NCBI GenBank assembly: GCA_963678705.1
Contig: OY783203.1
Coordinates: 43,338,347-43,402,346, forward strand
DNA length: 64,000 nt
Reading direction: 5' to 3'
Source: Panorpa germanica
Taxonomy: Eukaryota > Arthropoda > Insecta > Mecoptera > Panorpidae
The position numbers were made by a program, and so were the translations under genes. Under the pieces are notes generated by a model. That model made no database searches. It was not told the origin of the DNA and saw only the letters and a list, made by a program, of their open reading frames with translations. This document shows, piece by piece, positions 9,809-61,645 of the stretch. Positions within the stretch are counted from its first letter, which is position 1. Each line of letters opens with the position of its first letter.

Positions 9809-10494
9809 TATCTTAAAATATGAATGTACCGGTAAAAATTTGCTATAAAATTGGTTTATTTATAAGGATTTTATTGGATTTTAAAGAAAAAACGTGACTA
9901 AAAAATGATAGAGTGACTCTAATATTTATTAGTTTACTTATTTATTATTTTATTATATTATTTATTTATTTATTACATATATCTAAAAAAGGTTCTTTTA
10001 TGGTTCTATTCATCCAAAAGAGATTATTTTATGATTTTTATATCAGTGGAACTAATTTTTTTACATATATAAAAGCACATGTTAAGCGAAATTAAGCGGG
10101 TTAAGTCAAAGTCCTGATATTCAGTCGTTTATAAAAGTTTAAATATTTTTTATGAATTTATGTGGAATATGATTATAACATATAGTTATAATAAAATTAA
10201 AATGACCGCCAACCTCGCAATGGAGGCGTAACGTGCTCGTTCTTACTCCATGGATGTCAATTATCGATTCTCGATTATGCTTAGTACAGTAATACAAGCA
10301 GCAGTCAATACTTATTTATAATTTATTGCTATGAAAAATACATATGTTACTTGTAGTTCCTGTAATAAACCTCAAAATATAATGGCTTTTCTTGTATATA
10401 TAATAATATATATAAAATATTTAAAACTTGCTGACTGAAAGTTTTGCATTTTATTATATAAATAACATAATTTTACAGTTATTTTTTGTTTCAG
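9806..10494. other. 5' flank of the RASSF gene, upstream exon not located
   Basis: A splice acceptor (tttgtttcag) immediately precedes the first coding exon of the RASSF gene, so at least one untranslated exon must lie upstream, here or further left. I could not identify its donor. A slightly GC-richer island at about 10200-10290 is the most gene-like stretch. Confidence 0.4.
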
Positions 10495-10498
10495 CATA

Positions 10499-12514
10499 AT
10501 GGCTTGGTCTGGGTATGACATTAACGACAGTTGTGATAGCCTGTCACAGGAAGAAGCTTCCGGTACTTCTGATGGTGAAGAAGTTCCAATTTGGGTTCGT
10601 GGTGAACAGCGTTGGGTATCAGGTGTAACACATGAAACAACATGCTCCGACCTAGTAATAGTTCTTTTGCAAGATCAAGCAGAAGGAGTTTATTCTGGAT
10701 TATCAAGGCCAATTAACCCACAAGAATATGTTATCACAGAAAGATGGCGGAGAGTAGAACAACCTTTAGATTCAAGAACAAAAATACTAAAAATATGGAA
10801 TGCTTGGGGAGAAGCTCAAGCTGAGGTATTGACTGCACTTTTAATATTTAATTTGCTGATATACGGTATTGGCAAGTACCTATTAATTGTTTTATTTAAA
10901 TTTAGGTCAGGTTTTCACTGCGTCGAACGTCTGAACATGAAAACGGTGGAGACAGCGGGCGAGAAAGTCCTACAGGTAGCACAAATAGCGCTCTAGGAAA
11001 AAGAAGGCATCGACACAATAAATCAATATATTCTACTTCATTTTCTGTTAATACAATACATCCAAAAAGATTACTGAATATGGAAGGTAGAAGAGATAGC
11101 CATCGAAAAGGAATTGAGCAGCTTATGAAGTTGATCCTTGCACAGGGTGAAACAATTCAACATCAACTTCAAAAATTAAGGTACAAATGTTAATAGTTAG
11201 TACCTTATTACCTGCAATTATTATAATCTGGACCTATCTGGTCCATCTGGTTATTTAGAAAATAAAATCAAAATTAAGGAACATTAAAAATATTTCGAGA
11301 ACAACAAATTTTAAAATAAGTATTAACAAAGTTAAAAAATGACTTAGACAATTGCAGTAAATTACAGATATATTATGAACCACTAGAAATAATAATAGAC
11401 TGTTTTTAATTACAGAGATCGAGAAACTCAGATATCAAATATTGAAGAAGAGACACATCGATCCCGAGTTAAGGAGCACGGAAGCAATTATTTATTGGAA
11501 GCATATCTAAGTGGTCTCCCAGGAGAATGTGATCACATTAGAGACCAAGAAAAAACCCATAGTGACAGTGGGGTAGTTACCGAAGGAGGCAGTGATCAAG
11601 CAACATCCCCAGAAGCTTCCAGTTCTCCAGTAAATGGAAATCCAAAATCAACCAAAAATGACGACAGCATGAAAACCAAATCTAAAGAGAGATCTATTAA
11701 TAATACTGATGAATTATATAATGAACCTTACGAAGACCTAAATAACGCCATCAGTTCAACTCCAAAGAAGAAAACACGTTCTAAACGTGAAACGGAACTA
11801 ATGAAGGAACATTTATTAACAAAGAACTATACTGAGACTCTAAGTCGAGAGAAAGATGAGTGTAAAGATGATGCATCTGACACTGAATCTCATATATCGA
11901 ATTTACGAGCTCAAATTAATGTTTTTGAAAAGTTAGTTGTACTTAACAAACATCTTCAGCGCGAAGAAGAATTATTAGTTAGATTAGGTGCAAAATGCCG
12001 ACGATATGAGACCAAAGCCAAAGAAGGACAATCTGAAGAAGAATTACGTCAAGCCTTAGACGAGATTAAACAAACAACTGAGAAAAGTACAACAGAAATG
12101 GAAAGAAATTCAATGCAGCTCGAAGAGGCTGACAAACTTCTTCGATCCAGAGCAGATACGTTAAATCGTTTACACGTAGAGCTAGAGCAAGCTGAACATG
12201 AACATGAACAACTACATTACGATATGGTAAATTATCACGCTGCCCAACAAAATTATCAATTGAAATATATAGTTTTAAATGAACCAAAGAATGTAGATAA
12301 TGTTAGCACTGGGCAGCAAATATCGAATGCACTAGCTAAAGGGCAATATTCTAACATTAATCATTTCGCTAATGTAAATACTGTGAGTCCAGCTGGGAAA
12401 ATTGGTCCCAAGAAAATGCTACGATCTGTAAATGACGTTGTGGATTCAAATTCAGATACAGGACTAAGTTCTCTTAGTGAAGAAGGAGCATCAGCGTTAA
12501 ATACTCTTGTTTAG
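10499..12514 (+). CDS. meru: RASSF9/10-type N-terminal RASSF protein (Drosophila Meru-like)
   Basis: Three coding exons, 10499-10825, 10906-11180 and 11416-12514, join in phase to 566 codons. The start is the first ATG after an acceptor at 10494. An N-terminal Ras-association domain spans about residues 30-120 (IWVRGEQRWVSGVT, TTCSDLVIVLL, PQEYVITERWRRVEQ, TKILKIWNAWGEAQAE). It aligns closely with vertebrate RASSF10, including the following segment QKLRDRETQ...RVKEHGSNYLLEAYL. A long charged coiled coil covers about residues 355-480. There is no SARAH domain, as in the RASSF7-10 group. The C-terminus ends Asn-Thr-Leu-Val, a class I PDZ-ligand pattern. In flies Meru links planar and apicobasal polarity in sensory organ precursors; a similar scaffold role is inferred. 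Convergent with the zinc-finger gene downstream. The family call is firm; 9 versus 10 orthology is inferred from the RASSF10-like match. Confidence 0.92.
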
Positions 12515-13373: not shown

Positions 13374-14427
13374 TTATATATATTTTTTTCTCTCATCGCC
13401 CTTCATCTGAACAAGCTTCGCAAATTTTTCGTTTAGAAAATGTTTTCGTGTCTTCAAATGAGTTGTCAAATATGTGCGCTTTTTAAAAGATTTACTACAG
13501 ACTTTGCACATGTACTCTTCGTTTGCTGTAGATGATTTCTCTTTGTGATTTCGACGTTTTCTTTTCTCTGTAGGACATTTCTTACTATGTATTGCAAGGT
13601 GATTCTTTAAGACAGTGAATTCCGTGAAGACCTTAAAGCATAAATCACAACGGTAATGCCATCTTAGAGATTTTTTTTGAACAGGTTTCTGAGTAGTTTT
13701 GGTGATTTCACCAGATCCATTGCCAGCTGAGTTTGCATCCTCATTCAGTGAACTAGTATTAAATTCCTCTTTAATAATTTCGTCGTTGTAATCCATTTCA
13801 CATTCTTCTGGTTCAATTTTGACCTCGTATTTTATTTCCACAGTTTCATTTATACTTTCATGTTCATACGGCATTAATTGATCTTCTTGCGAGTCCTGTT
13901 CTTCTTGCTCCATTTTAATTTCTTTAACCTCTATAATATATTATCAAATTTTAATTATAACTCATTTTATTTTTATTTTCTGTAATATCAGCGTGGCATG
14001 GATAAAAATAACAGTTTCAATATAATAATATTTTTTAAATATTGTAAATATTGCATAAATCGAACATATAGAAATACAACTACCTGTACAAATACAAGTA
14101 ATTGTTTAAAACTTCTTCGATTTAAATGTATACATAATTTATGACAAAACTCGAATAAAAGTAGAATTTACCGTGAAATGTTGTAGAATCTTCATTCGGT
14201 TCCATGTTATCTAAGTTGTTATCAGTTTTAAATGCAAATATTTTTGGCACTGCTAAACGTTTCAAACTGAGTTCGTCTCTCCTTAACGGTTCCCATTGAT
14301 TGTCATCAAAATGTACCTAAATAATAACATTATTTTCTGGAATATGTCAAAATTTTATTTTATATGTTTTGCTAACCTGACAAACTCGTATGTGGTTAGT
14401 CTCTGCTTTTAGCTCACGACGGATGTG
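13374..14427 (-). CDS. THAP / C2H2 zinc-finger protein, 5' end incomplete
   Basis: Minus-strand exons 14427-14377, 14316-14172 and 13930-13374 join in phase (phase 0, then phase 1). The first two encode the C-terminal half of a THAP DNA-binding domain: RVCQVHF supplies the distal Cys-x2-His of the C2CH zinc site, followed by W and the conserved LKRLAVPKIF. The last exon holds an acidic linker rich in Glu and Asp, then two C2H2 fingers: CDLC...HLAIH and CKVC...HLKTRKH, ending 14 residues before a Lys-rich C-terminus. The protein is likely a nuclear DNA-binding factor; targets are unknown. The N-terminal Cys pair of the THAP domain is not found. Upstream of the 51-nt exon the frame meets TAG directly after a Trp codon, which is either the end of an acceptor (ctggtag) or a nonsense mutation. 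So the gene is incomplete here or degenerate. Confidence 0.7.
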
Positions 14428-23282: not shown

Positions 23283-24260
23283 TTGATAAACTGTTTCATT
23301 AAATTTAAAATATCTACGCGCATCTGGCTTTTATGCAACTTTTTTAAAGTTTATGGACTTTTTTTCTATAAATTTTTTTTTGATTCCATGAAATATTTTG
23401 ATGCAGTTATGTTCGTTAGGCTTTAAAGTAAAAAACTGCTTCATTACTTTTTAAATAACTAAGCGTGTCTGACTTTTACGCGACTTTTTTAAAATTCATG
23501 GACTTCTTTTTCTAAATTTTTTTTCTTGATTTCTTGAAATATTTTGATGCAGTTACGTTCGTTAGGCTTTAAAATAAAGAACTGCTTCATTACTTTTTAA
23601 ATAACTAAGCGTGTCTGGCTTTTATGCAACTTTTTTAAAACTCATGGACTTTTTCTTTTTAATTTTTTTTTTTCGATTTCTTGAAATATTTTGATGCAGT
23701 TACGTTCGTTAGGCTTTAAAATAAAGAACTGCTTCATTACTTTTTAAATACCTACGCGTGTCTGGCTTTTATGCAATTTTTTTAAAACTCATGGACTTTT
23801 TGTTTTTAATTTTTTTTTTTCGATTTCTTGAAATATTTTGATGCAGTTATGTTCGTTAGGCTTTACAATAAATAACTGCTTCATTACTTTTTAAATAACT
23901 AAGCGTGTCTGACTTTTACGCGACTTTTTTAAAATTCATGGACTTCTTTTTCTAAATTTTTTCTCTTGATTTCTTGAAATATTTTGATGCAGTTACGTTC
24001 GTTAGGCTTTAAAATAAAGAACTGCTTCATTACTTTTTAAATAACTAAGCGTGTCTGGCTTTTATGCAACTTTTTTAAAATTCATGGACTTTTTTTTCTA
24101 AATTTTTTTTTCTTGATTCTTTTAAATATTTTGATGCAGTTATGTTCCTTAGGCTTTAAGATAAAGGACTGCTGCATTACTTTTTAAATATCTACGCGTA
24201 TCTGGCTTTTAAGCGACCTTTTTTAAATTCATGGACCTTTTTTCCTAAAACTAAAATATT
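23283..24260 (+). repeat. Tandem array of ~147-bp units, left arm
   Basis: About six and a half copies of a ~145-150-bp unit recognisable by gatgcagttatgttcgttag, then ctgcttcattactttttaaa, then gcgtgtctggcttttatgc, then a T-rich run. Units begin near 23402, 23543, 23693, 23841, 23988 and 24132. Variant units recur in an order consistent with a higher-order repeat. The complement of the same units forms the right arm. Confidence 0.9.
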
Positions 24261-24744
24261 TATATTTTTGAAAAATGATTTGTGTTTTCTGACGTAGTTT
24301 TTTATGCTGATTCCAAAATTGAAGTCCATTTTTAATTATCTGTTATACTTTTCGAATAATCTGTGTGTAAAGTTTTTGACTATTTTTTAATTTAAAATGC
24401 TTATATCTCGCAAACCAAAAGACTTACATAAAAATGAATTCCAGATTTGAAATCAGCATTCAAAACTACATTAAAAACCATTAAAAAATCAACAAATTTT
24501 TTTCATCAATTTTTAAGAAAAGTAAGAAGACTATACTCTTCTTACTTTTCACAAAAAACACTTTTTCTATTTTGGCACATGATACATCTTTTCTAACGTA
24601 GTTTTTTACGCTGATTCCAAAATTGAAAACCATTTTTAATTATCTCTTACCGTTTTCGAATAAACAGCGTTTTAAAATATTTATTTTTACTTTTTTATTG
24701 TTTCCTCTAAAGCCAGTAAAGGACAAATATTTCAATTTAAATTG
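24261..24744. repeat. Central spacer of the inverted array, with hairpin
   Basis: Holds two direct copies of a ~75-bp segment (from 24288 and 24592, sharing gctgattccaaaattgaa) and one inverted relative near 24460. A perfect 14-bp inverted repeat with a 6-nt loop lies at 24517-24550 (gaaaagtaagaaga and its complement), close to the geometric centre of the whole structure. Confidence 0.75.
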
Positions 24745-26560
24745 AACAGTTCTTTATTTTAAAGCCTAAGGAACGTAACTACATCAAAATATTTCAAGAA
24801 ATAAAAAAAAAATTTAGAAGAAAAAGTCCATGAATTTTAAAAAAGTCGCATAAGAGCCAAACACACTTAGTTATTTAAAAAGTAATGAAGCAGTTCTTTA
24901 TTTTAAAGCCTAAGGAACATAACTGCATCAAAATATTTCAAGAAATCAAAAAAAAAATTTAGAAAAAAAATGTCCATGAATTTTGAAAAAGTTGTATAAA
25001 AGCCAGACACGCGTAGATATTTAAAAAGTAATGAAGCAGTTCTTTATTTCTAAGCCTAACGAACATAACTGCATCAATATATTTCAAGGAATCAAGAAAA
25101 AAAAATTAGAAAAAAAAGTCCATGAATTTCAAAAAAGTTGCATAAAACTCAGACACGCTTAGTTATTTAAAAAGTAATGAAGCAGTTCTTTATTTTAAAG
25201 CCTAACGAACATAACTGCATCAAAATATTTCAAGAAATCAAGAAAAAAAAATTAGAAAAAGAAGTCCATGAATTTTAAAAAAATCGCGTAAAAGTCAGAC
25301 ACGCTTAGTTATTTAAAAAGTAATGAAGCAGTTATTTATTTTAAAGCCTAACGAACATAACTGCATCAAAATATTTTAAAGAATCAAGAAAAAAAAATTT
25401 AGAAAAAAAAAGTCCATGAATTTTAAAAAAGTTGCATAAAAGCCAGACACGCTTAGTTATTTAAAAAGTAATGAAGCAGTTCTTTATTTTAAAGCCTAAC
25501 GAACGTAACTGCATCAAAATATTTCAAGAAATCAAGAAATAAAATTAAAAACAAAAAGTCCATGAGTTTTAAAAAAGTTGCATAAATGCCAGACACGCTT
25601 AGTTATTTAAAAAGTAATGAAGCAGTTCTTTATTTTAAAGCCTAACGAACGTAACTGCATCAAAATATTTCAAGAAATCAAGAAAAAAAATTTAGAAAAA
25701 GAAGTCCATGAATTTTAAAAAAGTCGCGTAAAAGTCAGACACGCTTAGTTATTTAAAAAGTAATGAAGCAGTTATTTATTGTAAAGCCTAACGAACATAA
25801 CTGCATCAAAATATTTCAAGAAATCGAAAAAAAAAAATTAAAAACAAAAAGTCCAAGAGTTTTAAAAAAATTGCATAAAAGCCAGACACGCGTAGATATT
25901 TAAAAAGTAATGAAGCAGTTCTTTATTTTAAAGACTAACGAACGTAACTGCATCAAAATATTTCAAGAAATTAAGAAATAAAATTAAAAACAAAAAGGCC
26001 ATGAGTTTTAAAACAGTTGCATAAAAGCCAGACACGCTTAGTTATTTAAAAAGTAATGAAGCAGTTCTTTATTTTAAAGCCTAACGAACGTAACTGCATC
26101 AAAATATTTCAAGAAATCAAGAAAAAAAATTTAGAAAAAGAAGTCCATGAATTTTAAAAAAGTCGCGTAAAAGTCAGACACGCTTAGTTATTTAAAAAGT
26201 AATGAAGCAGTTATTTATTGTAAAGCCTAACGAACATAACTGCATCAAAATATTTCAAGAAATCGAAAGAAAAAAATTAAAAACAAAAAGTCCATGAGTT
26301 TTAAAAAAGTTGCATAAAAGCCAGACACGCGTAGGTATTTAAAAAGTAATGAAGCAGTTCTTTATTTTAAAGCCTAACGAACATAACCGCATCAAAATAT
26401 TTCAAGGTATCTTTAAAAAAAATTAGAAAAAAAAGTCCATGAATTTTAAAAAAGTCGCGTAAAAGCCAGACACGTTTAGTTATTTAAAAAGTAATGAAGC
26501 TGTTCTTTCTTTTAACTCATAGCGAACATAACTGCATCAAGAATTTTAAAGAAATGTAAT
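24745..26560 (-). repeat. Tandem array of ~147-bp units, right arm (inverted)
   Basis: About twelve and a half units identical in design to the left arm but in reverse complement (gcagttctttattttaaagc, ctaacgaac, aactgcatcaaaatatttca). A three-unit higher-order period of about 440 bp is visible: variant units near 25641, 25788 and 25935 recur near 26080, 26226 and 26372. The last unit near 26515 is degenerate. Confidence 0.9.
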
Positions 26561-31054: not shown

Positions 31055-34000
31055 TTATGATGTTGCGAATTTTAGAGCTTGATCCAGATCTTCAATTAAG
31101 TCTTCTTCGGACTCTAATCCAACGGAAAGACGAATGAGATTATCTGTGATTCCAAGAACTGCACGTTGGTCTTCAGGCACAGAAGCATGGGTCATGAGCG
31201 ATCTATAATATTATAAAGTACAATTATTTACTTTTTAAACCTTTTGCTAATTCTAACAATACAGTTTCAACATTTGTGTTTTAGTTGAGGACAATATCAT
31301 AGTTTATTTAATTAAATAATGTTACTATTTGGAAAAATAAAGCTACTCAGTGTAAAAGCCGCCCATGTCCAAGTGTAGTGTATTTTTTGATAAACTTACG
31401 GTAACTCAGCAAGACTTTCATAGCCTCCAAGACTTTCAGCCAATGTAAAAACCTTTAAGGCTTTGAAGAATTTACGAGATTCTGCTAGTCCTCCTTTTAT
31501 AAAGAAAGAAAGAATACCACTGTGGCCATAGCTCTGCTTAAGAGCAATCTTATGTTGTGGATGGGATGGCAATCCTGAAACCAAAAACATATTTTGTAGG
31601 AGGTTGTTAAGTCATTATTTAAAGTAGCAAACCTTAAATTTTTATGTGTGCTAATGCTAAATGCTAAATATATAAAATATCTTCAAAAATATTGCGACTT
31701 ATTAAAAAATAATAGAAAATCTGAGATTGTGAAATTTTATAAAAATTGGGATATGGTTCAAAAGTCTATTGTACTGAATATTGTCGGTTTACAGATTTTA
31801 TTTTTTACTATATTTTAAAAGATTTTATCATTTGAATTTCTTACCTGGATGAATAGTTTTTTCCACAGAAGAATGGGTCTCCAAGAACCTAGCAACAGCA
31901 AGGCTGTTCGTACGATGCTTTTCCATTCTTATTGCTAACGTTTTTAAACTGCGATTGACTTGAGAGCAATCAAATGGTGATGGAACAATTCCCAGCGCTA
32001 AATAACAAATTAATTAGTTATATGTAAATACTTAATAAACAATTGATTGAGTTATACCATTTCTCTTCCTAACATAATTAAATTACTAATTCTAAAAAAG
32101 AAATATTTTACGAAAACAAAATCTAAACCTATATGATAATTCTGGAAATACTGCAAACAAATAAATTAGTTTTATCTGTCACTTTCTATCTATGCAATTT
32201 CTTTTGGATATTAAAGTAATATAAGACAAATTTTATTTTAACAGGTGTCTGAAATAATTATTATGTCAACAGGATATGAATAATTTAGGCAATCAGTAAA
32301 ACAATATTTTTGTTTTTACCATTTTGGAGAAATCTTAATTTCTCATGGACTGCATCATCGTTTAATATAACCGCTCCCATTATGACATCTGAATGACCAT
32401 TCATATATTTCGTTAGAGAATACATAACCATGTCTGCTCCTAACTCCAGTGGACGTTGAAGATAGGAAGATAAAAACGTGTTATCCACAACCAATAAAAC
32501 CTGAAATATTCCAAATGGTTTATCATATATAATTCAACTTTACTTAGGTAAACAAGAATTGTTTATATTCAATTTACCCCTGGATGCTGATGCACTACAT
32601 CTGCTACAGCTCGGATATCTGTCACCTTCAACAGAGGATTTGTGGGAGATTCGATCCAGACCAACTGTGAAAAACATTATTGCATTTAGAAAATTTAAAC
32701 AACCTTATTTAAAATTTATTTTGATTTTAAAATATATATTTAAAGTTTTTCAATAAAAAAGGCATTTATCAAAATGCAAACGTTATTTTATAATATTTTA
32801 ATTATTAAAATGTTTAATGAATCTGAATTTAGCGTTGTCAGTTTCTATTAACAACTAAAAGCTGTGCAAGGAGATTCAATAGAAAATTATATAGCGAATA
32901 CATATCCTGAGTAAATAATACAAAGTAATAACAATTGGGGAACTAAACTACTGTCAAGATACTAAGAAAGTGACAAGCTACATAATCAAGATAGTTACTT
33001 GTCATCATTTGATTTGAGAAAATTTGAATCATTTAATGAAAATTTTTTAAAGAGCAAGTAACAGATCAATGGGTTTGTGAATTAATTTTTATAAAACTGT
33101 TTTATATATTGTAAAGTTGACTATCAGGACTTCAAATCTCTAATTATTTGTTTATAAGTCGCAATATTATTAACAATTAAATAGTCATTTTTGACCCTTC
33201 TGTGACATTATAACAAGCGGAAAAACTAAAATTTAAGATTTAAATAGCTATATTTCACAATCCAAATATTACATTGCTTCCTTTAAAATTTACCTTTGTG
33301 TTTTTCTTAATAGCGTTAGCAATTGCTTCAAGGTTTGTGGCATCAACAAAATCTAATTCCAATCCCATACGAGTAGCAATTTTGCTAAAATAAAATAGTA
33401 CTTGTTATTATATATAAAAAAAAACAATTTAAAAACCAATTACATAATCATTATATTTATAAATTGTCATATATTTTAATTATTATTTATTACCTAAAGT
33501 ATCTGTTAGTTCCGCCATAAACATCATCTATAGAAATAATATGATCTCCTGCTGAAAGTAAATGCACCACAGCAGTGCTAGCACCTAAACCTGATGAAAA
33601 GCATAATCCATGTTTACCCCCATCCAAGGATGCCAGACAGGATTCTAAAACATTACGAGTGGGATTTCCAGATCTGCCATACTCAAATCCCTAAAAGAAA
33701 TATTTTTATTAATTATAGATATTATGTATTACAGTTGATATCATAATCGTATGAATCCATAGTATTCATCAGTCTTTACAAAACCTGTTAGTAAATAACA
33801 TATTAAATGTGCATAATCACATATGCATATAAAACAGTTTCAATCATTTATTTAGAATGAATTAAGTAATGTAACCAAGCATACTTTTATAAAGCGGTTA
33901 ATGGTTTTATTTAAAAAATCGACCAAGGAATCAAAACACAAATAAAGAAATTTTCAAATAATAAAAGATCCTTTACAATAAAATATGGGAATTATTTTTT

Positions 34001-37000: not shown

Positions 37001-39092
37001 GAATAATTCAAACATCAAATTTTAAATTTTAAGAGCTTTATTCTGACTTGTAATTTTTAACGCTGGTATATTATTATAAAATTACGTTAAATTGCGTTGA
37101 CTGATTAAGTAAAACTTTTAAGACAATATATAATTTTCAAAAAGGCTATTTTTTATCTTGAACCTTTATTAAATGTTACGTAGATTGCGTTTCATTTTTT
37201 TAAATTGATTACTATACATCAAATTACAATTGAAAATTGATTTTGCGCGTAATTATTTACTCAAGTGGATTTACTAGATTCAGTCTCAGTTCAAGGACTA
37301 ATCCAGGGTTGCATATACACAAACTGTAACAAAAAACATTTGGCTTGTGTTATTAGTTACCTCGCCGTTGTCAAAAGGACAAAAGGACAAAAGAGATGAA
37401 AGAAGAATAGCGATACAGATAGTTTAACAAATGGAAGTGTGCAAAGTCTGTAAAGTGGCAGAAAAAACGTTGGAACTTATGAAAAAAGAATGCAAGCGGC
37501 AGGTAGACAGTGAAATAGAGATAGATAAATTGCATAAAGGTGTCAAGGAGGGAAAGAGGTGAATGCTAAAAGTACAGAGTAGAAGCGAACAAAAGAAGAG
37601 TATAGGACAGAAAGAGAGGAGAAGACTAAAAAGTTATGGAATTTTTAATACTTCTGAGTATATTCTAGATTAGGTAAATCTAAGTAAGAATAAATAAAAT
37701 GTAAATGATAGATTAAGGTAGAAGAATGTAACGCTTAACGATAAAAACGTTAATATATAATAAGCTGTTGTACAAAATAGTTAAACAATATTAATATAAA
37801 ATAAGATAGTGAGAGAAGTCAAAGGACATTAATGGGCATTAAAAAAATTCGTTTTAAACGCAAGAATGCCGCAAATGAATACGTCAATCAAATGTCAAGT
37901 GATACAGATAAGTTAAATTGTTATATTAAAAACGCATTATACGGGATGTATGTACCATAAATTACTTTGTATGAGTATATCTTTAACAATTAAGTACCCA
38001 ATTAATGTAAACATATTGTAAATTATTTATTAATTAATATCAATTAAATTCTATAAATATGTCGTTCCTAATATAATGTATCAATCGTTACGATTATTAG
38101 TCATAACATTATCAATTAAAAAAAAATATTTTGTACAGTCGTTTTAATTCGATTCTGTTTTTATTTAATATTACAATAATTATTGGAATTCTTTTTGTAT
38201 GTGGTTAATTTTGGTAAGTAACAAAAATACTTCAAATTATGTTTTTATTGATAATGCCAAACCGACATTAGTTCGCTATAAGTATTCGTAATTGGCAAAT
38301 AACAAGTAGCTATTACATGTAGAAATAAAAATAAACTATTGTCTACGCACAACACTTTAAATTACTTCAGATGACAGTCGTCGCAATGTTCGAGAGGTTG
38401 CATACTTGACAAAATATTGCTTTATCTTCTGATTAGATTTCCGGAACAGCGCTATTTTTTATCATATTTAAAATTCTCAACGAAAATATTGTAATATACA
38501 AAGAAGGGCTGCTTTATACTACATTGTACTTCATACTTTTAAAACCAAATTTCTCTAGTGCTTTGCAACACTGTTACGATATGGCTGGGAATACCTCGCT
38601 GTCCAACCATGAAAACCACAAATGGAATTCCCTATTAAATATGACAGATTCTTAGGAATCGTATTTCTGTACGAATGACCTTCACCCAATGTTAAAATCA
38701 TCCAAAAAATTCTATAAATATATCAACAATCGGATAAGGAGCAAGACCGCTTTTAACTTTTCGCGTTAATAAAAAGAAGTTAAAAAAAATATGAAAATTT
38801 CGCACAAGTTGTGCCTAGGATCCCATCGATCCTAAAACGGCTATAATTAAGGGGGATATGTATATAATATAGTTGGTATACCTATTATATGTGTATATAA
38901 TATTATTTATTTGTAGAATTATAAATGTCTTACACTATGTTCAGCTGGAGCAGATTGCTTAAAAGTCGTGGACATTGTGATAGGTGGCACCACTGCAAAT
39001 GATTTCCATTGATCTGCACTATTGCCAGCATGTATAGCTCTAGTTGAAAATCCCCTAGGCTGTACTAAAAATTCTTTTGGTTGTTCACCCAT
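31055..39092 (-). CDS. CTH: Cystathionine gamma-lyase (copy A, canonical)
   Basis: Eight minus-strand coding exons, 39092-38934, 33690-33494, 33384-33294, 32664-32578, 32500-32320, 31997-31845, 31574-31400 and 31202-31055, join in phase to 396 residues (human enzyme 405). It is a cytosolic PLP enzyme of the Cys/Met metabolism family that splits cystathionine to cysteine, 2-oxobutyrate and ammonia, the last step of transsulfuration, and can release H2S. Seen: YGRSGNPTRN near residue 57, DDVYGGTNRYF (Tyr111), VVDNTF (Asp184), [11 protein letters not shown] with PLP lysine Lys209, FTLAESLGG (Glu336) and LIRLSVGL. Residues equivalent to human E59, R119 and E339 are all kept (Glu56, Arg116, Glu336). 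Intron 1 is 5.2 kb. An acceptor (ttattatag) just upstream of the ATG implies a 5' untranslated exon. The function is assigned with high confidence. Confidence 0.96.
33060..33150. repeat. Short repeat shared between introns of the two gamma-lyase genes
   Basis: atgggtttgtgaattaattt and the following tttataaaactg, aaagttgactatcaggactt are similar to 43965-44040 in intron 7 of copy B. Since the introns are not equivalent, this is more likely a dispersed repeat than a relic of the gene duplication. Confidence 0.4.
34435..34500 (-). mobile_element. tRNA-derived SINE, minus-strand head fragment
   Basis: Complement shows a B box (ggttcgattcc) next to a tatatttgaa/agcgctggtata-type sequence. Only a short, diverged piece, inside intron 1 of copy A. 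Confidence 0.45.
34841..35110. repeat. Dispersed repeat B, copy 2
   Basis: Partner of 28537-28760, with an extra ~40-bp segment (gataatggtactgaaatctc) before the shared tagtttatgtg end. Lies in intron 1 of copy A. Confidence 0.65.
35111..38933. other. Remainder of intron 1 of gamma-lyase copy A
   Basis: No nested gene is supported. A purine-rich stretch at about 37380-37650 contains a 43-codon ATG frame with a CxxC start, not recognised. A weak SINE-like piece (atttccggaacagcgctattt) lies near 38440. Confidence 0.4.
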
Positions 39093-42815: not shown

Positions 42816-45800
42816 TCAATTTATTTTAATGGTCTTTAAAGCTTGATCTAAATCAGCAATTAGATCGGCTTCACACTCCAGTCCAACAGAGATACGAATT
42901 AAGTTATCCGTTATTCCAAGTCGTGCACGTTGTTCAGCGGGTGTAGGCTTATGAGATATGCGGCTTCTGCAAGGTAAATAAAATATTTAGTCATATTTCC
43001 GCTACAAGCAAATAAAATTTTATGTAAAAGAGATATTTCGTATTGTTTAATGTAACAATTTTTACTGTAGTCCAAATCACGATAGTTCGGCGGCGACTTA
43101 TACTTAAAAGAGGTTATAACCTATATAATATATAAGAGCTGTATAAATCTATAATACGATAATGAATTTTATCTTAATCATTTCTATATACATTATAGAA
43201 AAATAAATGAGTCAGTGCTTTTTAGTTATATTAGCAGCTTCCCAGTAAACATTTTGGAGTAAATTCGACTTAATTTCTATTACATATCATGAATTTTTTG
43301 TCTGGAACGTGTTCGTTTTCTATTCAGTCGTTCAAAGGAAAGGTCCTTTTTATGAGCTACAGACATTTCAACGACGGTTCACTGCTGAATTAAAAGCGGA
43401 GTAGGTTTATGATTTATGACCGGATAATAAAAATATACCCATGTGGGAAAGAAACAGAAATACTTAATGAATGATGTTGGAAAAAGAAAGAATATTATTA
43501 TGAAAAACTAACACAAAATCTGTGACAGGTAGAGAACTTGTAAAGCGTTAGAATAGAATTGTACGAGTGACTCGAACTTCACCAAATAGGACACTTCACC
43601 AAATTGTTTACTGGGTTATACCCCACAACTTGTTTTAAAAATGAGTTGCCGCCGAACTCTCGTAATTTGAACTATAATACATTTTTTGTAGTTCTCAAAC
43701 TTTTATGATTAACAAGATCATGTCATAATTCTATACATAAACAAAAATATTGTATTTATGACCCTAATCACCCAATTAAAACAGATTTTTAAGATCCTAA
43801 TCATAATACGCAGAGTAACTGGAAAATGTAATTACATTGTAGGTATTGCAAACTTATGTAAACAGTAATTTTCTTTATGGTAAGCAAAAAAATTGAACCA
43901 ATCACTAAGTAAAACAGTAGAGGTAGTTAGTCCGGACAATCACATGATTAAGAACCTCCACCTCAGTAAATGGGTTTGTTTTCAAATTTTTATAAAACTG
44001 AACTATATTTTAATAAAGTTGCCTATCAAGACTTCAATCGTCCAAATATTTTTTAATAACTACCTATACTTTAGGAAATATTACTAATTAAAATAGTCAT
44101 TATTTAGTTATAGAAAATACCACTGCATGGTCTGGTGTCATGGTCACGTCTGCTGATTTGCCATCTCTTTTATACAACAGAGAAGCATACAAGGTTGTGT
44201 GGGAAACGTCATTTGCTACTTACAGCTGGGTTGTGTATCTTATCAAGTTTTATATTACGATAATAGTAAAAAAGGAAGAATAATCTCTAACTAAAGAAGT
44301 ATAACTCCGTCAACTTTGGATATTTAAAAAAATAAAAACGTCTATAGATTATTTAGTAATTAAAAATAAAAATTAAAAACGTCTATTAAAAATTATTTTA
44401 ATAAAAAATAAAAAAATGAGTTCACAAGCCCATTGTGGTACACAATTAAATTTGGCATGGGATCTAAGAAATGGGCCACAAAAATATACCGAGATTCACA
44501 CTTTTTCTGAAGCTTCCCAGTAAACAATTTGGTGAAGTGTCCTATTTAGTGACGTTTCTATCACTATTTCACTTCAATTATAGTTCGCATCAACTTTATC
44601 TTCATTTGTACTCCGACAGGTGGAGTAATTTCGCCATTTGTAGCCGATAAAGTAGACATTTTATATGAAAAAATGTGAGAAACTGAACTATAAATAAACT
44701 CTTTCATGACAAAAGAATCATGACGCATCTTCAATATGATGTCAAAGTGACTCCAAAATGTTTACTGGATTACAACAACGTTTAGCAGATATTTTGCTGC
44801 TATGAGTAATAACTAGAATTGGTTGATGCAATCAAGTGCAACTACAAGAAGATTAAACCAATCTGCACATGGACACAGTTTTGCCGGTTGAGAATGTGAG
44901 ACTGTGTATATACACAATCAACGTCACAACACATTTGCATTCTCCACCGGTTGGGGACTCGCAACGGGCTAAGAATATAATAGGATTACATTACTTATTA
45001 AAGTTGTGTTTAGAAAAAAACTCTTCATTATGAAAATTAGATTGAATTGAGCGAACATTTTTATATCCAACTTTTGCCAACTTTTATAATTTTAGAAATA
45101 GGCAATTCAAATTTTAGGATATAAAAGTATAATACATACGGTATCTCAATATTACTCTCCACTCCTCCAAGACTTGCAGCTAGAGTAATTAACTTCAATG
45201 CCTTCAAGAATTTAACGCTATCAGCAAGTTCACCCTTAATATAAAATGAGAAGAGACCGCTGTGCCCGTAGCTTTGGGACACGGCAAGTTTGTGTTGCGG
45301 GTGAGACGGTAATCCTGAAATAATAATACAAATGATTAGTCCATATTAATATTATTAATGAGAGTATTTATCAGAGCGGCCCATAAAGAAGTTCAATTTT
45401 GAGAACTAAAAAATCGAGAAACTGAATAATGAATTTAGTGCGAAGTTGTACACGTCTTCACAAAAGCAGATACTCAAAACCAAATAAAAAAAAACTTTGT
45501 TCCCATAAATCATAATGAAGTGCGGACGCCACAGCGCTAGCTGCTGTGTCTCCGGATTCGATCCACGGACCAGAATTATATTTTCTGGGTTTGGTTGTTA
45601 TTAAGTTGAATTTACTAGAAACTGCCAACAGTTGAGAGGTCAGCGATGATAGAACTAACATCGAAAATAGGCCGACAATAAATAAAATAATTTTTTTTTA
45701 ATTTTAAATAAAGAAGTTTCAGTGAAACACGTTTTTGTATTATTACAACATTTATTCTACCATTTGCGTATTTTGTACTAGACTGAAAAATACGAAAAGA

Positions 45801-48800
45801 ATTTCTGTTTAATGTATCAAAATTGTTCAAACCTTTTATTTTGTTTAAATAGCGTTTAAAACCTGAATTACTTTTGTTCGGTTCATCGAAATAATCATAA
45901 TAAAAATGTTCGTTCAAACCACATTTTTATGTGGTTTGTGAATACGTACTGCGCATTAACGAATTGTCTAAAAATAGTCTTCAATGATTATTCTTCAATG
46001 CACTCCAATTTACTTGTAATGCCGGTATCAAACGATACTACGGATACCTTCACTTTATGGTTGGACGCATCGTGTGGTCTATGCTGGAACTAAGTGTGTC
46101 CAACATTCATTTTGGAATAAGTTCGGGCTGTTGTCGGTCTTTTGACCCGCGTCAAAAGGTATTTATCTACCCACTTAACCACATGTCATGCACTGCTGCA
46201 CGAATCGTCCAACAAAGAAAGAATTTACACTTGAAAGTTTCTTTATTTACTTGAAAGTTTTTGTTAAACAGTGTCAGTGTCAATAATATGAACAAATAAT
46301 AAAATAAATAAATCATTCGAATCAAACATTCGTTCCACCGTGTAGTAGGAAACTTGTCATGTCAATCTTCCAATATTTCACTCACACGTTGGAGGCAAAC
46401 ATTTAAATCAAACGTTTCCCGCATTGTTTGGTACCGGCTTAACCTAATTTTCATGCCATAAATGACCTTCTTTGAACGCTACTTCGTATTTGTATTTTGA
46501 TTACAATCTTGTTACCTGGGTGAAGAACTTTTAGAACAGCGGGATGTTGCTCCAGAAACTTTGCTATGGCCAGACTGTTGCTTTGATGTCTATCCATTCT
46601 CACAGACAATGATTTTATACCGCGTGAAACGAGAAAGCAATCAAATGGAGATGGAACATTTCCCATAACTGTAAAAGCGTTACATAGAAACTGGTTATTA
46701 AATTTAATATGATACTAACCAAATGTATATTATAACAAATTTTCATATATAATATATAAAGTAAATAATTACCAATATGTAAATGTCGAAGCCTTTTGAA
46801 CAAATCTTCGTCGTTTAAGATAGCAGCTCCCATAATGACGTCAGAATGTCCGTTCATGTACTTCGTAAGAGAATGCATGACAATATCAACTCCCAATTCT
46901 AACGGACGTTGAAAATATGGAGTTAAAATTGTGTTATCTATGACTACTATTATCTGAAATTGCATAAAACAATTATTACCGTTTCAATGAAATTAACTAA
47001 AATCGAAATTTTCTAAACTTACGTCTCCGAAGTCATGAGCCATTTTGGAAAGAGCTCGAATATCGGTGATAATCAGCGAAGGATTGGAAGGAGATTCAAA
47101 CCAGATCATCTACAATTTACAAAGATCATATAATATATAATTCAAGATCAATTTCTAAATATAATCGACTTGCCTAATTCAATCAAAAATAATAGTAGTA
47201 TCGTTGAAAAAAAAATATTTTAGTGTTACATCAAAGAATTTCACAATTCAGATCAAAAATTTCTACAGTACTACTACTTAGATATAATAATAGATTATTT
47301 GAAAGAGTGAACGGTAGTACATTAAAAGAAGAACATAATTGGGAAGACGTGTAAAAATCATTCGATCACATTATACCAACATTTTACAGATATGGCTTGT
47401 TCCGAATGTAATTTTTTTAATGATGTTATAATGGTATTAAAATATATTAATGATGAAAAGACTAAATCTTGGGCATATAATATAAGGCACTGTAACAAAT
47501 TGTTGCAAAAAATATAATACAATTTAATTTATGCGTCTATAGCGGATAACAACCGCTATCACAACCCCACCCCACTCCCCTCATCTTATATACCTAATAC
47601 TTATATACCTTTGTGTTCTTCTTGAGACCTTTTGCAATGACGTCAAGATCTGAAAAGTCTAAGAAATCCACTTCTAATCCCATACGTGTTGCAACTTGCC
47701 TAAAATAATTAAAATGATTATTATTGAGAGATGTACAAGTAATAATTTTTAGTTATATTTCTTCTTATAAGTTAATTAGATCGCAAACTAACCTTCACAT
47801 ATTTTTTAAGGTTATGTTTAGAACATCAACTTGTTTTATGTTTCACTTAAACTCATTTTGTTAAAATAAGTGTGACATAAACATAAAATGCGCCGTGTAT
47901 TGATGTTGCTCTGGTCTGGAAAGACCATTAGGTATGTAGGAAACATAAACAAAATTCTTTTGCAGTAATCGAAATAAGTAACTCATAAAATGTTCTCCTT
48001 AAAGCAAACCATGCAAACCATGCTGCTTAAATTAAATTCGAACTCTCTACGAGTTATAGCATATAAATTAATCACAGCATTAGGTCAAAATAAAAAAAAC
48101 GTTATGAAAAGAAAATGTTCGATGTGTATTGTTCTTTTTAATGCGATATTTTTCAGCTCCGTAATTTGTTTTATTGTCAACAAACTTTACTCATACTAAC
48201 TTGTTAATTCGTAAGTAATACGTTGTTATCTTTACTCTAATAAACGATAATTATGTGATAAAATATGTCTACCTCAAATAAGAGTTGGTACCACCGTAGA
48301 TATCATCTGAACAAAGTATATGATCTCCTGCGCTTAACAACCCAACGATTGTAGATAAAGCACCCATACCAGATGCAAAAGCAAAACCATACTTGCCGCC
48401 ATCTAACGCGGCCAAGGTATTCTGCAAGGCATCACGGGTAGGGTTCGCAGCTCGGCTATAGAAATAACCCTATAAAAATAAAATGTCTTTGTTTACATAA
48501 TGAATAACAAGTTGATGTTTACATTTGTTGATTTTTTATAATTATAACCAAAGAAACAAGATTAAAAGTGCATGCCGTATAAACTCCATGAGAATTAGAT
48601 TACTATATACACCTGTTACATGTGTTATCAGCAAATCAGGCGTTAATCTTTTCTTTTGGCGATTTCAATTACTTAAATCTTATTTCGTCAAAGTAACTGC
48701 ATATTACATAAAATATAAGTTTTTACATGCAGTATTATGATATGGTTGAATATGTAAAAACATTGAACATTGTATATATAATCAGAAAAAATAGTTTCAC

Positions 48801-48986
48801 AATAGAACATCTATTATTATTGTTGTTTTTCTAACCTTAAATTATATGTATGACTTTTTATCTAAAACCGGGTTTTATGTTATAAATTAAAAATATAAAT
48901 ATGTATTTTTATGTAAATATAATATTTGGTTATCAAATCTCGGAATTAACGTATTGTTTGCGTTTGTAACATTTTGCGATTGTTCA

Positions 48987-49050
<64 letters not shown>

Positions 49051-52000
49051 CGGCACAGTGGCCGAGGCATTAAAGTTTGATACCAGATTACTTAGTCTTT
49101 GGGTTCGATTCCCGGACCCGCATCATATTTTCTGGAATGTATTGTTCTCAAAATTTAATTGATAATGTTCTCACATAATCAGAAAATTATTAGGCTGCGT
49201 TAGGGTTTTTTCAAATATATGAGGCTATCGGAGATAGGAACCAGGACGACGTTAAATAAATGAAAACAAATAGATTATATTTATATGATCTTTCAAAAAT
49301 AGTTAGAAAATAGTACGCCTGCATATATAAATCTGAAATCTAATGAAAGGGCTTTTAATTCATAATTATATATACATCTTAAGAAAAGAACACACTGAAC
49401 ACAAAACTGTCTTAGAGATATTTTTCTCAAAACACAATAAATACACACTCAGTATGAATAAGTCCTTGTCATCCTATTGCTTCAGATAACCCAAGATAAC
49501 CAATGAGAATGATCTATTAGGTCATGTGATCCACCACAGTCTAATAATAGCTTAGTCTGTCATTGAATTTGACAGAATATTTAAGGTGTCACTTAAGCTT
49601 AAGGTGTCGCTTAATATTTTCATTGAACAAAAAGGAACATACACATTTTATTAAAATAATAACTTTAGAAAAAATACAAATACAAATTAAGCTACCAGCT
49701 TAAATGAAATTTCAACATTTAAGGAATATAATTTTAGCCCCATTTTGCACCAGATTTTTATACACTTTACATTTTGTGTAAATACATCTACATGCGACTA
49801 TAGCAAATACCACTATAACAAAATCATAAATCTAATTTAAACAATTCAAATTTCGAATTTTTTGCTTTCCAAATTAATTCACTTCTTGTCCACCAGTTGA
49901 TGGAACTCCGCTGGGCCATTTTAGATGGGAGGATGTTTAAGAAAGTGGAAATAAGTAAAATAAAATGTTTAAGGAAAACATTAACAATTCGTCTCGATTA
50001 GATTATTAAATTGTGTTAACGTGAAATATAAGCAAGAGTATTTATATATAGAAACAGGGTTTTTATCTCTGCATTAGATATAATCACTATAAAATAGATT
50101 TCCGAGGTAAGTATCATTTTTATATTTATTTAAATTGGTAAGTTCATTATATTTTAGATGGTTAAATGTATCGCTACAAATGCGTTTCAGTTCTTTGCAG
50201 CACTTTCGAGAAATACATTCACCGATCCTGTTTGTGAAACCTTGTCCGACATAACCTTCCTTTAATCTGACTTCTACTTGATTATTTATTTTACGTTGGC
50301 CTATATTATTCCATTATAATCAGTGCAGTTATAGACATATATAAACCCTCCTGTCTTCATTCCTTCAAGCAATAAGCAACCTTTTCAAGTTTTGATTCAA
50401 TCATAAAATGTTTTCAATCGATTTCTCTATTTGTTTATCCCTGCATGCCAGATTGTCTATTAAAATTTAAAAAAAACATTTTTGTAAAGCATAAAATGAA
50501 ATGGAACCACCTGTTCCTTAATTTAATAGTAGTTCATTCTTTATTAACTGAAGATTTTTTATAAATTATTTATAATACAAAGTCTATGCGAATTCGACTT
50601 CGCTAAATGTCATTTAAGTAAATCGATTGAAAGATCCATGAATTCTACTTGAAAACGTATGATTCAGTGAACTAGCAGTCTAGCAGATTGTATTCCGCAA
50701 TCTTTGTTTTCTCATTTCCCAAACACCATTAGATGATAAGGCATATGTTTATAAAATGATAAATATATTAATATTTTGCAATTTTAAAATAACGTTATCA
50801 TTATTAGGTTCAATATCTATAATTACAATACTAATACGTAACATAACCTCAATATAATATAATCACTATATGCAAATTAAGTGTCAAATATTTGTTTAAT
50901 AAGCTACAAGTACATATACTTGCTTATCAGGAATGCATTAGCAGTAACAACAGAATGATTATTTGATGACTATAATATACTTAACCGATAATTTTAAATT
51001 GCTACATGTTACTAGCATTTTTCAGGTTAAAATGTTAATTTCTTTTGAATATATATCCATAATTTTACAATAAGCTTATCAAAATTTTTGACACTATTCT
51101 CTCTTTTTGACGCTATTGCAGACAGTGCCGGATTTAGAGATGTGGAGGCTCTGGGGAACGAAGGATCGGAGGCCTTTAATTATTTTCCGAATAAAAGGAA
51201 CATTTTTTTTCCGTCTAGTCTATCAAAAATTTATTGCTTTGATCACTATTGTGGGGACCCCTCTCTTGTGGAGGCCCCAGAGCAGTAGCTACTCCTGCCC
51301 TCCCTCAAATCCGGGCCTGATTGCAGACTAAATTTAAATATGGCCTCTCTTTTTTGTTACTAATTAACTCTGTTACATATGGCCTCTATTAACTGAAATA
51401 ATAGGATATATTCAAATATATATCAATTGACATTAAAATTATTTTCAAACTTTCATCTCGGTCCTAAATTTGTAATTTTAACATTAGCCCTTTGACCACA
51501 AAGACTCTGATATACATAATATAATAATAATAACAGTATATAACCCCTGATTTCAGTGCAACTATTTATACATCATACTTATGAAGTTTTATTTTTAGTA
51601 TGAACAGAATCAGCCGGAATAATGAAATTGCAAAACAAAAATCCAGAAAAATGCACAAACTTAGAAGATCAATATCTCTAGAGTGGTGCACGCAGTCACA
51701 TATAACGAGTACTACTGCCTCAAATAAAGTAAGAAATATCTTTATCCATTTTAATTATAATTTATTTAAGAAATTGAAAAACAATTAGAATTTAATTGAA
51801 AAATTATCTTCTTTATTTACTCTTGAATTTCACGGGCTGCTCTAATACGACAGACTATATATAAGTCGGCATAAGTGAAAACTATTTATACAATTTGCAT
51901 ATGTGTTAATCTATACAATTCATATAGCAACGCTAATTATTTTAAATTCTAAACACTAATAATGGTTATTTCTTTTTATCCGTATACAAATTTGTACAAA

Positions 52001-52831
52001 GGAAAACATTTGGTTAATATGAAAATATATTCTATTAATATATTATTCAATTACTACTAAGTGTAATACCATTACAAGAATTAAGTTGAACACTAAGTTA
52101 AAAATGTAATCAATGTTTCTAATATCAAAGCAAATTAACAACAAAATAGATCAAATAATTAGAATAAACAAATTAACGTAATTTTAAATCAAATTATCTT
52201 AACAAAATAACATTTAATAAATTATTTTTGTTTTAAATTAAAATCTTATCAAGCATTATAAAGTGAATGGTCTAAAAGTTATATTTGTCTAATAATTAAT
52301 ATGAAAGATACTATGATGATATGAACAAAACTACCTTAAAGTTAATAGTATGCTGTCTCCGACAGCAGATTTATGGTGTTGTTGTCTCAAATATGTGACC
52401 TTCAGCGTTGCCTAATAAGTTTCTATGATTATGTGAGCACATAATCAATTTAATTTTGATAATAATTAAACCAAGAAAATATGCCGCTAATTCGTAAATC
52501 GAACCAGCCACTGTGCCCGAGTGTGTTAAAATGTTAGTCCCTGAAGAGGTAATAAAATGTTAATGATATTAAATGTATGAGTAGCAATGTTCTTCAAACC
52601 GCAATCCGCAACAAGTAGTAACGCCTTATAAATAATTTAATTAAGATTACTTACCCCAGTACTGACGCTGTATGAGTCAGGTTCAGGTGTTTTAAAACTT
52701 GAGGCCATCATTATTGGAGTAACAAGAGAATTATATGCCACATTTCTCTCATCGTGTCCACTGTGGATAGCTTTAGTATCAAAGCTTAGATCTGCTGGTT
52801 GAGAAAGAAATTTCTTTGGTTGTTCCCCCAT
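42816..52831 (-). CDS. Cystathionine gamma-lyase paralogue with altered specificity residues (copy B)
   Basis: Minus-strand exons 52831-52655, 48469-48273, 47699-47609, 47109-47023, 46953-46773, 46668-46516, 45314-45140 and 42966-42816 join in phase to 403 residues. All seven intron positions and phases match copy A, so it is a tandem duplicate. PLP machinery is intact: [10 protein letters not shown] (Tyr63, Arg65), DDIYGGTN (Tyr117), VIDNT (Asp189-190 region), [11 protein letters not shown] with Lys215, and LIRISVGL. The residues matching human E59, R119 and E339 are Phe62, Ser122 and Ala342. At the first of these bacterial methionine gamma-lyases also carry Phe, and at the third a small residue. 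The protein probably uses a different sulfur substrate such as methionine or homocysteine, but this is inference. An acceptor precedes the ATG (attccag at 52848), implying a 5' untranslated exon. Several MITEs and SINEs sit in its introns. Confidence 0.93.
43241..43615. mobile_element. 375-bp MITE, copy 2
   Basis: Same length and nearly the same sequence as 16315-16689, with cccagtaaac / gtttactggg ends. It lies in intron 7 of copy B. Flanks carry tt on both sides, compatible with a 2-bp target duplication. Confidence 0.85.
44516..44768. mobile_element. MITE related to the 375-bp family (shared ends, different core)
   Basis: Starts cccagtaaacaatttggtga and ends actccaaaatgtttactgg, the family's terminal inverted repeats in the opposite orientation, but the ~210-bp interior is unrelated. 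Same intron as copy 2. Confidence 0.75.
45518..45690 (+). mobile_element. tRNA-derived SINE in intron 6 of copy B
   Basis: Head gacgccacagcg, ctgctgtgtctccggattcg B-box region, body tttctgggtttggttgttat and tail aggccgacaataaataaaat follow in order, with an internal deletion. Confidence 0.8.
48989..49049. repeat. (AT)n microsatellite
   Basis: About 28 AT units abutting the 5' end of the SINE at 49051. Confidence 0.95.
49051..49265 (+). mobile_element. tRNA-derived SINE, near full length
   Basis: Best-preserved tRNA-like head: cggcacagtggccgaggcat (A-box region similar to class II tRNAs) and gggttcgattcccgg (B box), then body tattttctgg, tattaggct and tail gacgacgttaaataaatgaa. It sits in intron 1 of copy B. 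Confidence 0.88.
49266..51114. other. Part of intron 1 of copy B, no nested gene
   Basis: AT-rich sequence with a short SINE-tail-like word (ttattttacgttggcctata) near 50286. Nothing else was recognised. Confidence 0.4.
51115..51327. mobile_element. 197-bp hAT-type MITE with perfect 8-bp target duplication
   Basis: The element at 51123-51319 begins cagtgccggattt and ends aaatccgggcctg, 13-bp imperfect inverted repeats with the CAG...CTG ends usual for hAT. The 8-bp flanks attgcaga (51115-51122 and 51320-51327) are identical. The interior has ggggacccc-type GC words and no coding sequence. Confidence 0.9.
52350..52530 (-). mobile_element. tRNA-derived SINE, minus strand
   Basis: Central body (gcctaataagtttctatgat, tatgtgagcacataatcaat), ccaagaaaatat and complement of the head (agccactgtgcccgag) are in order. 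It lies just downstream of exon 1 of copy B, within intron 1. Confidence 0.75.

Positions 52832-57086: not shown

Positions 57087-61645
<4,559 letters not shown>

Follow-up and report, generated by a model that had tools for sequence, protein, structure and literature searches.

In human cystathionine gamma-lyase (CGL), encoded by CTH, R62, R119 and E339 hold cystathionine by the amino and carboxyl groups of its distal end, according to docked models that were likened to the human crystal structure (PMC6073527). In the same work, E59 is the place of a water bridge, and the two glutamates were proposed to set the reaction specificity (PMC6073527). The yeast double mutant at both glutamates selectively lost cystathionine hydrolysis and spared beta-elimination substrates, single substitutions at the yeast equivalent of E59 stayed close to the wildtype, and the change of human E339 to a hydrophobic residue gave more H2S from cysteine; Glu59 is called conserved in CGLs outside protozoa, and the Toxoplasma enzyme carries Ser at this position (PMC6073527). 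Regarding the related methionine gamma-lyase (MGL), the serine adjoining position 339 orients the lysine that binds pyridoxal phosphate (PLP) (PMC9307983), and human CTH has been engineered for methionine degradation (PMC12114517). Here, we analyze a pair of CTH genes, copy A and copy B, found in a window of 64,000 nucleotides from the scorpionfly Panorpa germanica (contig OY783203.1 of GCA_963678705.1, positions 43,338,347 to 43,402,346 of the forward strand). Copy B retains its catalytic residues and has replaced those at 59, 119 and 339 by F, S and A, and it is probably a lyase with a changed substrate.

CTH has also been described in other insects. In aphids, one CTH entry is enriched in bacteriocytes (A. 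pisum 100159197 and M. persicae g10610, up 6.48 and 5.57 log-fold, respectively), and the other (100159560 and g10608) is given at -1.16 and 0.68, which is not significant (PMC10067822). The 'cystathionase-like' enzyme of aphid bacteriocytes was assumed to turn cysteine into cystathionine for the methionine pathway of Buchnera; feeding work cited in that source obtained methionine from cystathionine and not from cysteine, for which the authors offered a developmental explanation (PMC8433001). Psyllids have bacteriome-enriched CGLs, two of them in the column that we took as B. cockerelli (PMC10558732), and a planthopper table gives 2 and 1 CGL, which we interpreted as host and symbiont (PMC4441501). 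Besides, the whitefly CGL has been counted among the sources of 2-oxobutanoate (PMC4607527), and CGL is strongly expressed in firefly lanterns (PMC6191289, PMC7522259). More broadly, across the model organisms compared in PMC3216388, C. elegans excepted, most genes for H2S synthesis are present in one copy, the CGL of P. aeruginosa also uses cysteine and homocysteine (PMC11039470), and the MGL of plants is a source of 2-ketobutyrate (PMC7476758). In the titles and abstract openings of the literature on insect and animal CTH duplicates, we found no description of the substitutions reported below in an insect CTH.

Two intact CTH genes in tandem

Hand-built splice-aware models, made on a six-frame reading of the window, yielded two intact CTH genes of eight exons each. 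They are arranged in tandem, both on the minus strand, as copy A (39092-31055, 396 aa) and copy B (52831-42816, 403 aa, with no internal stops). The seven introns of each copy all have GT-AG ends, their phases (0,2,0,0,1,1,2) are the same in both genes, their seven positions relative to the protein are equal, and exons 2 to 7 have the same lengths. The two proteins have the N-terminal residues MGEQPK-FL-QP in common and are 58-59% identical, with a two-residue indel close to the N terminus, one of four residues immediately before position 59 (numbering of human CTH is used throughout for shared positions) and one of a single residue at the C terminus. Over 380 columns, identity to human CTH is 62% for copy A and 52% for copy B. 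The pair is a tandem duplication, and an old one, since its synonymous sites are almost saturated with differences (pS 0.72, dS ~2.4), with a pN of 0.255.

Copy B keeps the catalytic core and loses the contacts to the distal head

The original prediction, made from the letters of the window, had placed E56, R116 and E336 of copy A, and F62, S122 and A342 of copy B, at the positions of human E59, R119 and E339. Both coordinates and residues turned out to be exact, and alignments to human CTH from the PDB bear out the equivalence of the sites, the sole nearby gap being the four extra residues of copy B before position 59. The distal-head contacts R119 and E339 of animal CTH are, in copy B, replaced by S and A. 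As also predicted, the PLP lysine and the phosphate contacts of copy B are intact. We examined 11 catalytic or PLP-contacting positions, chosen in part from PMC6073527 and PMC9307983, and copy B keeps all of them (Y60, R62, Y114, N161, D187, T189, S209, T211, K212, S340 and R375), including the Ser next to 339. Across 85 CGL and MGL sequences, it retains 54 of the 59 columns that are conserved at 97% or more. The loop at 335-358 is changed in copy B; that of copy A reads FTLAESLGGYESLAELPSLMTHAS.

Positions 59, 119 and 339 across the family

In order to contextualize these changes, we compared the three sites in prokaryotic relatives, taking the best 80 by query similarity out of at least 589 that were found with two peptide patterns, a sample in which MGLs are under-represented. 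Position 119 is Arg in 79 of the 80, position 339 is acidic in 78 and position 59 in 70. A single sequence (L078, with I/S/V at 59, 119 and 339) lacks R119, and no other of the 80 is uncharged at 119 and 339 together; by its best PDB matches, to the C. freundii MGL (563.6 bits), it is an MGL. Two Chlorobiaceae relatives (L021 and L072) have F/R/D, so that Phe occurs naturally at 59 beside an intact R119. Regarding mobile elements, viral contigs gave 26 stretches matching two short patterns, none of which encodes a relative, and plasmids gave 1381 records with a match, all below 60% identity, with none of the 25 listed taken into the comparison.

The same sites were compared in solved enzymes. 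Human CGL, yeast CGL and 7d7o have E/R/E, and the CTH of PDB 8j6n (presumably from rat) has V/R/E, with V at 59 and both R119 and E339 retained. Two cystathionine beta-lyases (CBLs; A. thaliana 1ibj, and 8jui) have D/R/V, four solved MGLs (1gc0, 3jw9, 9qm6 and 6lxu) have F or I, then A, then V, and four sulfhydrylases (8ovh, 7kb0, 8sf5 and FUB7 8erb) have V or I, then N or T, then A, together with N at 340 and G at 116. Among the 12 further enzymes compared, all six natural members that are neither CGL nor CBL and lack R119 are MGLs or sulfhydrylases; cystathionine gamma-synthases (CGSs) of known structure lie outside this comparison. R119 was the best separator of CGL- and CBL-type sequences from MGLs and sulfhydrylases among those compared. 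Within this small sample, an uncharged 119 therefore accompanies enzymes whose substrate lacks a distal amino-acid head. The A339 of copy B is the residue of the sulfhydrylases, and its S340 is that of MGLs and CGLs.

These comparisons also adjust the weight of each site. Copy B has indeed lost its three charged distal contacts. The claim that all three residues restrict CTH to cystathionine overstates the role of E59, given that this position is V in 8j6n, Ser in the Toxoplasma CGL and non-acidic in 10 of the best 80 relatives. Because E59 varies in CTHs and its single mutants stay near wildtype, what counts most is that R119 and E339 are lost. Similarly, the statement that bacterial MGL has Phe at the first site applies to the P. 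putida enzyme, while the other four MGLs compared have Ile.

Departures at the sites engineered in human CTH

Copy B departs alone, with copy A equal to human, in 71 of the 380 comparable columns. The three sites are all among them (hypergeometric p = 0.006), a weak test given that they were picked after looking at the sequences. Human CTH carrying E59N/R119L/E339V reportedly has methionine-degrading activity. The structure 6ovg, which we take to be a methionine-degrading variant of human CTH, differs from the wildtype in eight of 380 columns (59, 63, 91, 119, 268, 311, 339 and 353). Copy B differs from human at every one of these eight sites and copy A at two, and copy B does so alone at six (hypergeometric p 0.0007, with three of the eight being the sites already picked). 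At the five unpicked sites, copy B departs alone in three (p = 0.04), which is weak evidence, these sites being variable in the family: the best 80 relatives hold M91 in 41, R268 in 38, S63 in 17 and G311 in 77. Since ordinary relatives differ among themselves at the five other sites, only 59, 119 and 339, and chiefly the latter two, discriminate. Besides, the residues of 6ovg are those of the MGL 9qm6 at all eight sites, so the comparisons with 6ovg and with MGL amount to one test and not two. Copy B has 198 identities (of 380) with wildtype CTH and 200 (of 381) with 6ovg, and copy A has 237 and 231, respectively. The top PDB match of copy B is 6ovg, with 430.3 bits vs 425.3 for the wildtype.

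Family profile scores

Copy B scored 469.3 bits against Pfam PF01053 (Cys/Met metabolism PLP enzymes), above the gathering cut-off of 27. For NCBIfam, 23 models were listed for both copies, and copy B scored higher than copy A on 13 of them and lower on 10. Its gains include all four MGL models among them (TIGR01328, +30.1 bits; NF004876, +13.2; NF005263, +8.5; NF005695, +7.7), together with three sulfhydrylase models, on which it gains 6 to 13 bits. It gains most on TIGR01328, with 380.6 vs 350.5 bits, where its score lies below the cut-off of 549.7. Its losses, ranging from 25 to 54 bits, fall on ten CGS, CGL/homocysteine desulfhydrase, CBL, thiol-lyase and methionine-biosynthesis models. 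This pattern suggests that copy B is departing from the CTH neighbourhood rather than turning into an MGL.

Copy B descends from CTH

The main maximum-likelihood tree had 28 rows, 26 selected from 88 sequences plus yeast CYS3 and the C. freundii MGL. Copies A and B came out as sisters (support 99/97), with vertebrate CTH next (99/93), yeast outside and the five MGLs in a separate clade (100/100). Grouping copy B with the MGLs was rejected (approximately unbiased test, p-AU 0.0035), while placing copy A with vertebrates without copy B, which would mean a duplication before the vertebrate-insect split, was less likely and not rejected (p-AU 0.065). An 87-row tree, run in a quick version only, gave the A and B pair a support of 91. 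According to these trees, copy B is a CTH paralogue by descent, within the animal CTH clade. With the two copies as sisters and the MGL grouping rejected, any MGL likeness of copy B is convergent and not transferred, and any MGL-like specificity would have arisen by an independent route, as the original prediction held. The prediction was also right in that copy B lacks the Cys that bacterial MGL has beside the catalytic Tyr, with G at 116 instead. Horizontal transfer of a bacterial MGL as the origin of copy B is ruled out by the shared introns and the tree.

The two copies have diverged unevenly. The branch of copy B is 0.72 long and that of copy A 0.22, a 3.3-fold difference. From its protein and from pooled codon use, the coding sequence of copy A would be expected to contain 38.8 CpG, and it contains 24 (P 0.0035); that of copy B contains 42 vs 37.4 expected, with CpG observed/expected near 1.0 in the introns of both. 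Judged by composition only, this contrast resembles that of a housekeeping and a restricted gene under gene-body methylation.

Probable function of copy B

On balance, we consider copy B a neofunctionalised tandem paralogue of CTH, probably a lyase for a smaller substrate without the distal amino-acid head. It would keep the PLP lyase-type chemistry, would no longer hold the distal amino/carboxylate head of cystathionine and would favour a smaller substrate whose distal part bears no charge. Its reaction might be the gamma-elimination of methionine or homocysteine to 2-oxobutanoate and a thiol, or the beta-elimination of cysteine or S-alkyl-cysteine, and copy A would stay the transsulfuration enzyme. 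Candidate substrates are methionine, homocysteine, cysteine or S-alkyl-cysteine, and homoserine, and sulfhydrylation is a further candidate activity. Several observations weigh against this proposal. Copy B changes five of the 59 conserved columns (T46S, F190I, T261S, L347N and M354I) and copy A one (P193S); these changes could also mean relaxed constraint, and copy B may have either a new specificity or partly relaxed constraint. Its private departures show the MGL residue in 25 of 71 cases, the same rate as those of copy A (11/32), so there is no sequence-wide drift towards MGL, and the two copies are about equally identical to the four MGLs compared. M91 and R268, which copy B shares with MGLs, are no marks of MGL either, since they are so common among the best 80 relatives. 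On NCBIfam, copy B also exceeds copy A on the CGS-family models NF006097 (+18) and NF006347 (+8), the CGL models NF005758 (+14) and NF005026 (+4), the racemase model NF041088 (+15) and the CBL model NF005976 (+1), and no cut-off was reached by either copy among the models listed. The resemblance to MGL lies in the pocket and not in the sequence as a whole.

More specific or more modest readings of copy B have to be weighed against a smaller-substrate lyase. Copy B might specifically be a methionine (or homocysteine) gamma-lyase that arose naturally in an animal and converged on bacterial MGL, which we consider somewhat unlikely. The F/S/A of copy B comes near the F/A/V of the P. putida MGL and the I/S/V of L078, S340 is as in MGL, the biggest NCBIfam gain over copy A is on an MGL model, and a methionine-degrading human CTH has already been engineered (PMC12114517). 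However, Cys116 is missing, position 353 is R in copy B vs S in the five MGLs compared, M354I and T355S alter a motif that is unchanged among these five, and M91 and R268 are frequent in CGL-like relatives too, with no general drift beside them; a simple MGL reading is further weakened by V339, which occurs also in both CBLs. An enzyme working mainly as a cysteine desulfhydrase or a cysteine-S-conjugate beta-lyase, with release of H2S or a thiol, would agree with the effect of a hydrophobic 339 on H2S from cysteine in human CTH and with the beta-elimination spared in the yeast double Glu mutant (PMC6073527), as well as with the retained S340 and with T355S, found also in the A. thaliana CBL. 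We regard it as unlikely; R119 is present in both CBLs compared, so its loss is unnecessary for the beta-elimination of cystathionine. Copy B could also be sulfhydrylase-like, joining activated homoserine or serine with sulfide into homocysteine or cysteine, or could deaminate homoserine to 2-oxobutanoate. The four sulfhydrylases share A339 and G116 with it and have a hydrophobic 59 and N or T at 119, and three sulfhydrylase models favour copy B over copy A, yet this role seems very improbable: sulfhydrylases have N340 where copy B has S, and the segment equivalent to human 214-260 measures 47 residues in copy B, as in CTH, vs 77-80 in them (30-33 more). To our knowledge, animals do not make O-acylhomoserine, which also counts against it.

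An ordinary CGL with tolerated pocket changes, differing from copy A in expression, would fit the tolerance of other CTHs to the loss of Glu at 59 alone, and a CpG-depleted copy A with an undepleted copy B would suit a housekeeping gene beside a restricted one. We find this quite improbable, with R119 (79/80) and an acidic 339 (78/80) nearly invariant among the best 80 relatives. Relaxed constraint on a gene that is becoming a pseudogene, or a role as a regulatory subunit with weak catalysis, would account for the 3.3-fold longer branch and for five highly conserved columns changed vs one in copy A. It is distinctly improbable all the same. No splice site is lost, the reading frame is unbroken and the 11 catalytic positions examined are all kept, which leaves a pseudogene unsupported, and pN is well below pS across a near-saturated distance.

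Returning to copy B as a lyase for a smaller substrate, a bolder and rather unlikely extension is that the insect evolved its own methionine/homocysteine lyase from its transsulfuration enzyme, through the very pocket sites chosen by engineers, and that the orthologue in sap feeders could be the bacteriocyte CTH, for which a part in supplying the symbiont with methionine or isoleucine is disputed; instead of making cystathionine, it would release 2-oxobutanoate and sulfur from small substrates. If copy B does degrade methionine or homocysteine, it would be a natural animal counterpart of the specificity switch engineered into human CTH for methionine depletion. It would then offer a test of how few changes suffice and a natural scaffold for comparison. 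Positions 119 and 339 would become a sequence criterion by which 'cystathionine gamma-lyase' annotations in insects could be re-examined, among them the second copy of aphid bacteriocytes, whose proposed reaction is put in doubt by the feeding work cited in PMC8433001.

Exons of both copies and other features of the window

All exons lie on the minus strand. Exon 1 of copy B (52655-52831) has the start codon and a GTAAGT donor, and its end segment is 4 residues longer than that of copy A before the equivalent of E59. Exon 2 (48273-48469) contains F62 (human 59), A66 (63), M94 (91), Y117 (114) and S122 (119). The model continues with exon 3 (47609-47699) and with exon 4 (47023-47109), which encodes the ESPSNP segment with N164 (human N161). 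Exon 5 (46773-46953) carries D190, T192, S212, T214 and the PLP lysine K215 (human D187, T189, S209, T211 and K212), exon 6 (46516-46668) R271 (human K268), and exon 7 (45140-45314) A342 (human E339), S343 (S340) and N350 (L347). The altered loop SRISHKP, R378 (human R375) and the stop are in exon 8 (42816-42966). Between these last two exons, the intron contains nested inverted-repeat pairs within 43242-44768 (43242-43328/44682-44768, 70%; 43549-43615/44516-44582, 82%), in a pattern such as a DNA transposon or a miniature inverted-repeat transposable element would leave. Copy A consists of exon 1 (38934-39092), exon 2 with E56 and R116 (33494-33690), exon 3 (33294-33384), exon 4 (32578-32664), exon 5 with the PLP lysine (32320-32500), exon 6 (31845-31997), exon 7 with E336 (31400-31574) and exon 8 with the stop (31055-31202).

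The window has a G+C content of ~29%. Two arrays of a 146-147 bp satellite occupy 23289-24249 and 24743-26555; their consensus units are reverse complements, and with ~490 bp between them the arrays make up a large inverted pair. Exons of N-ethylmaleimide-sensitive factor (NSF), covering the AAA lid and NSF lid domains, were found at 60162-61524 on the plus strand. Open reading frames (ORFs) of 176 and 371 aa lie at 10466-12511 (plus strand), the first with sub-threshold RASSF/ASPP Ras-association matches, and an ORF at 13377-13940 (minus strand) encodes C2H2 zinc fingers. A 152-aa ORF at 1118-1573 (minus strand) has no Pfam match and presumably resembles the C-terminal end of a non-LTR (long terminal repeat) retrotransposon polymerase. 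Scanning the window for tRNAs, Rfam matches and TTAGG runs found none.

Comparison with known systems

The second insect CTH gene beside an ordinary one recalls the bacteriocyte-enriched CTH of aphids (PMC10067822), a likeness in copy number. At the level of the protein, human CTH (PDB 2nmp) is like copy B in its catalytic residues, with the 52% identity given above, and unlike it in having E/R/E for F/S/A, a different 335-358 loop and none of the four extra residues before 59. The engineered 6ovg comes closer in that copy B, too, departs from human at each of the eight engineered sites; M91 and R268 are identical in both, whereas the residue is another one at the remaining six. Cystathionine beta-lyases, with their D/R/V pattern (1ibj and 8jui), do not resemble the F/S/A of copy B. 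Bacterial MGLs (1gc0, 3jw9, 9qm6, 6lxu and L078) share with it a hydrophobic 59, small uncharged residues at 119 and 339 and S340, but they have Cys116, V at 339 and another 353-355 motif, and form a separate clade. The O-acetylhomoserine sulfhydrylases (8ovh, 7kb0, 8sf5 and 8erb) share a hydrophobic 59, an uncharged 119, A339 and G116, and differ in N340 and in ~30 extra residues in the middle of the protein. The uncharged 59, 119 and 339 of copy B are thus shared with MGLs and with sulfhydrylases alike.

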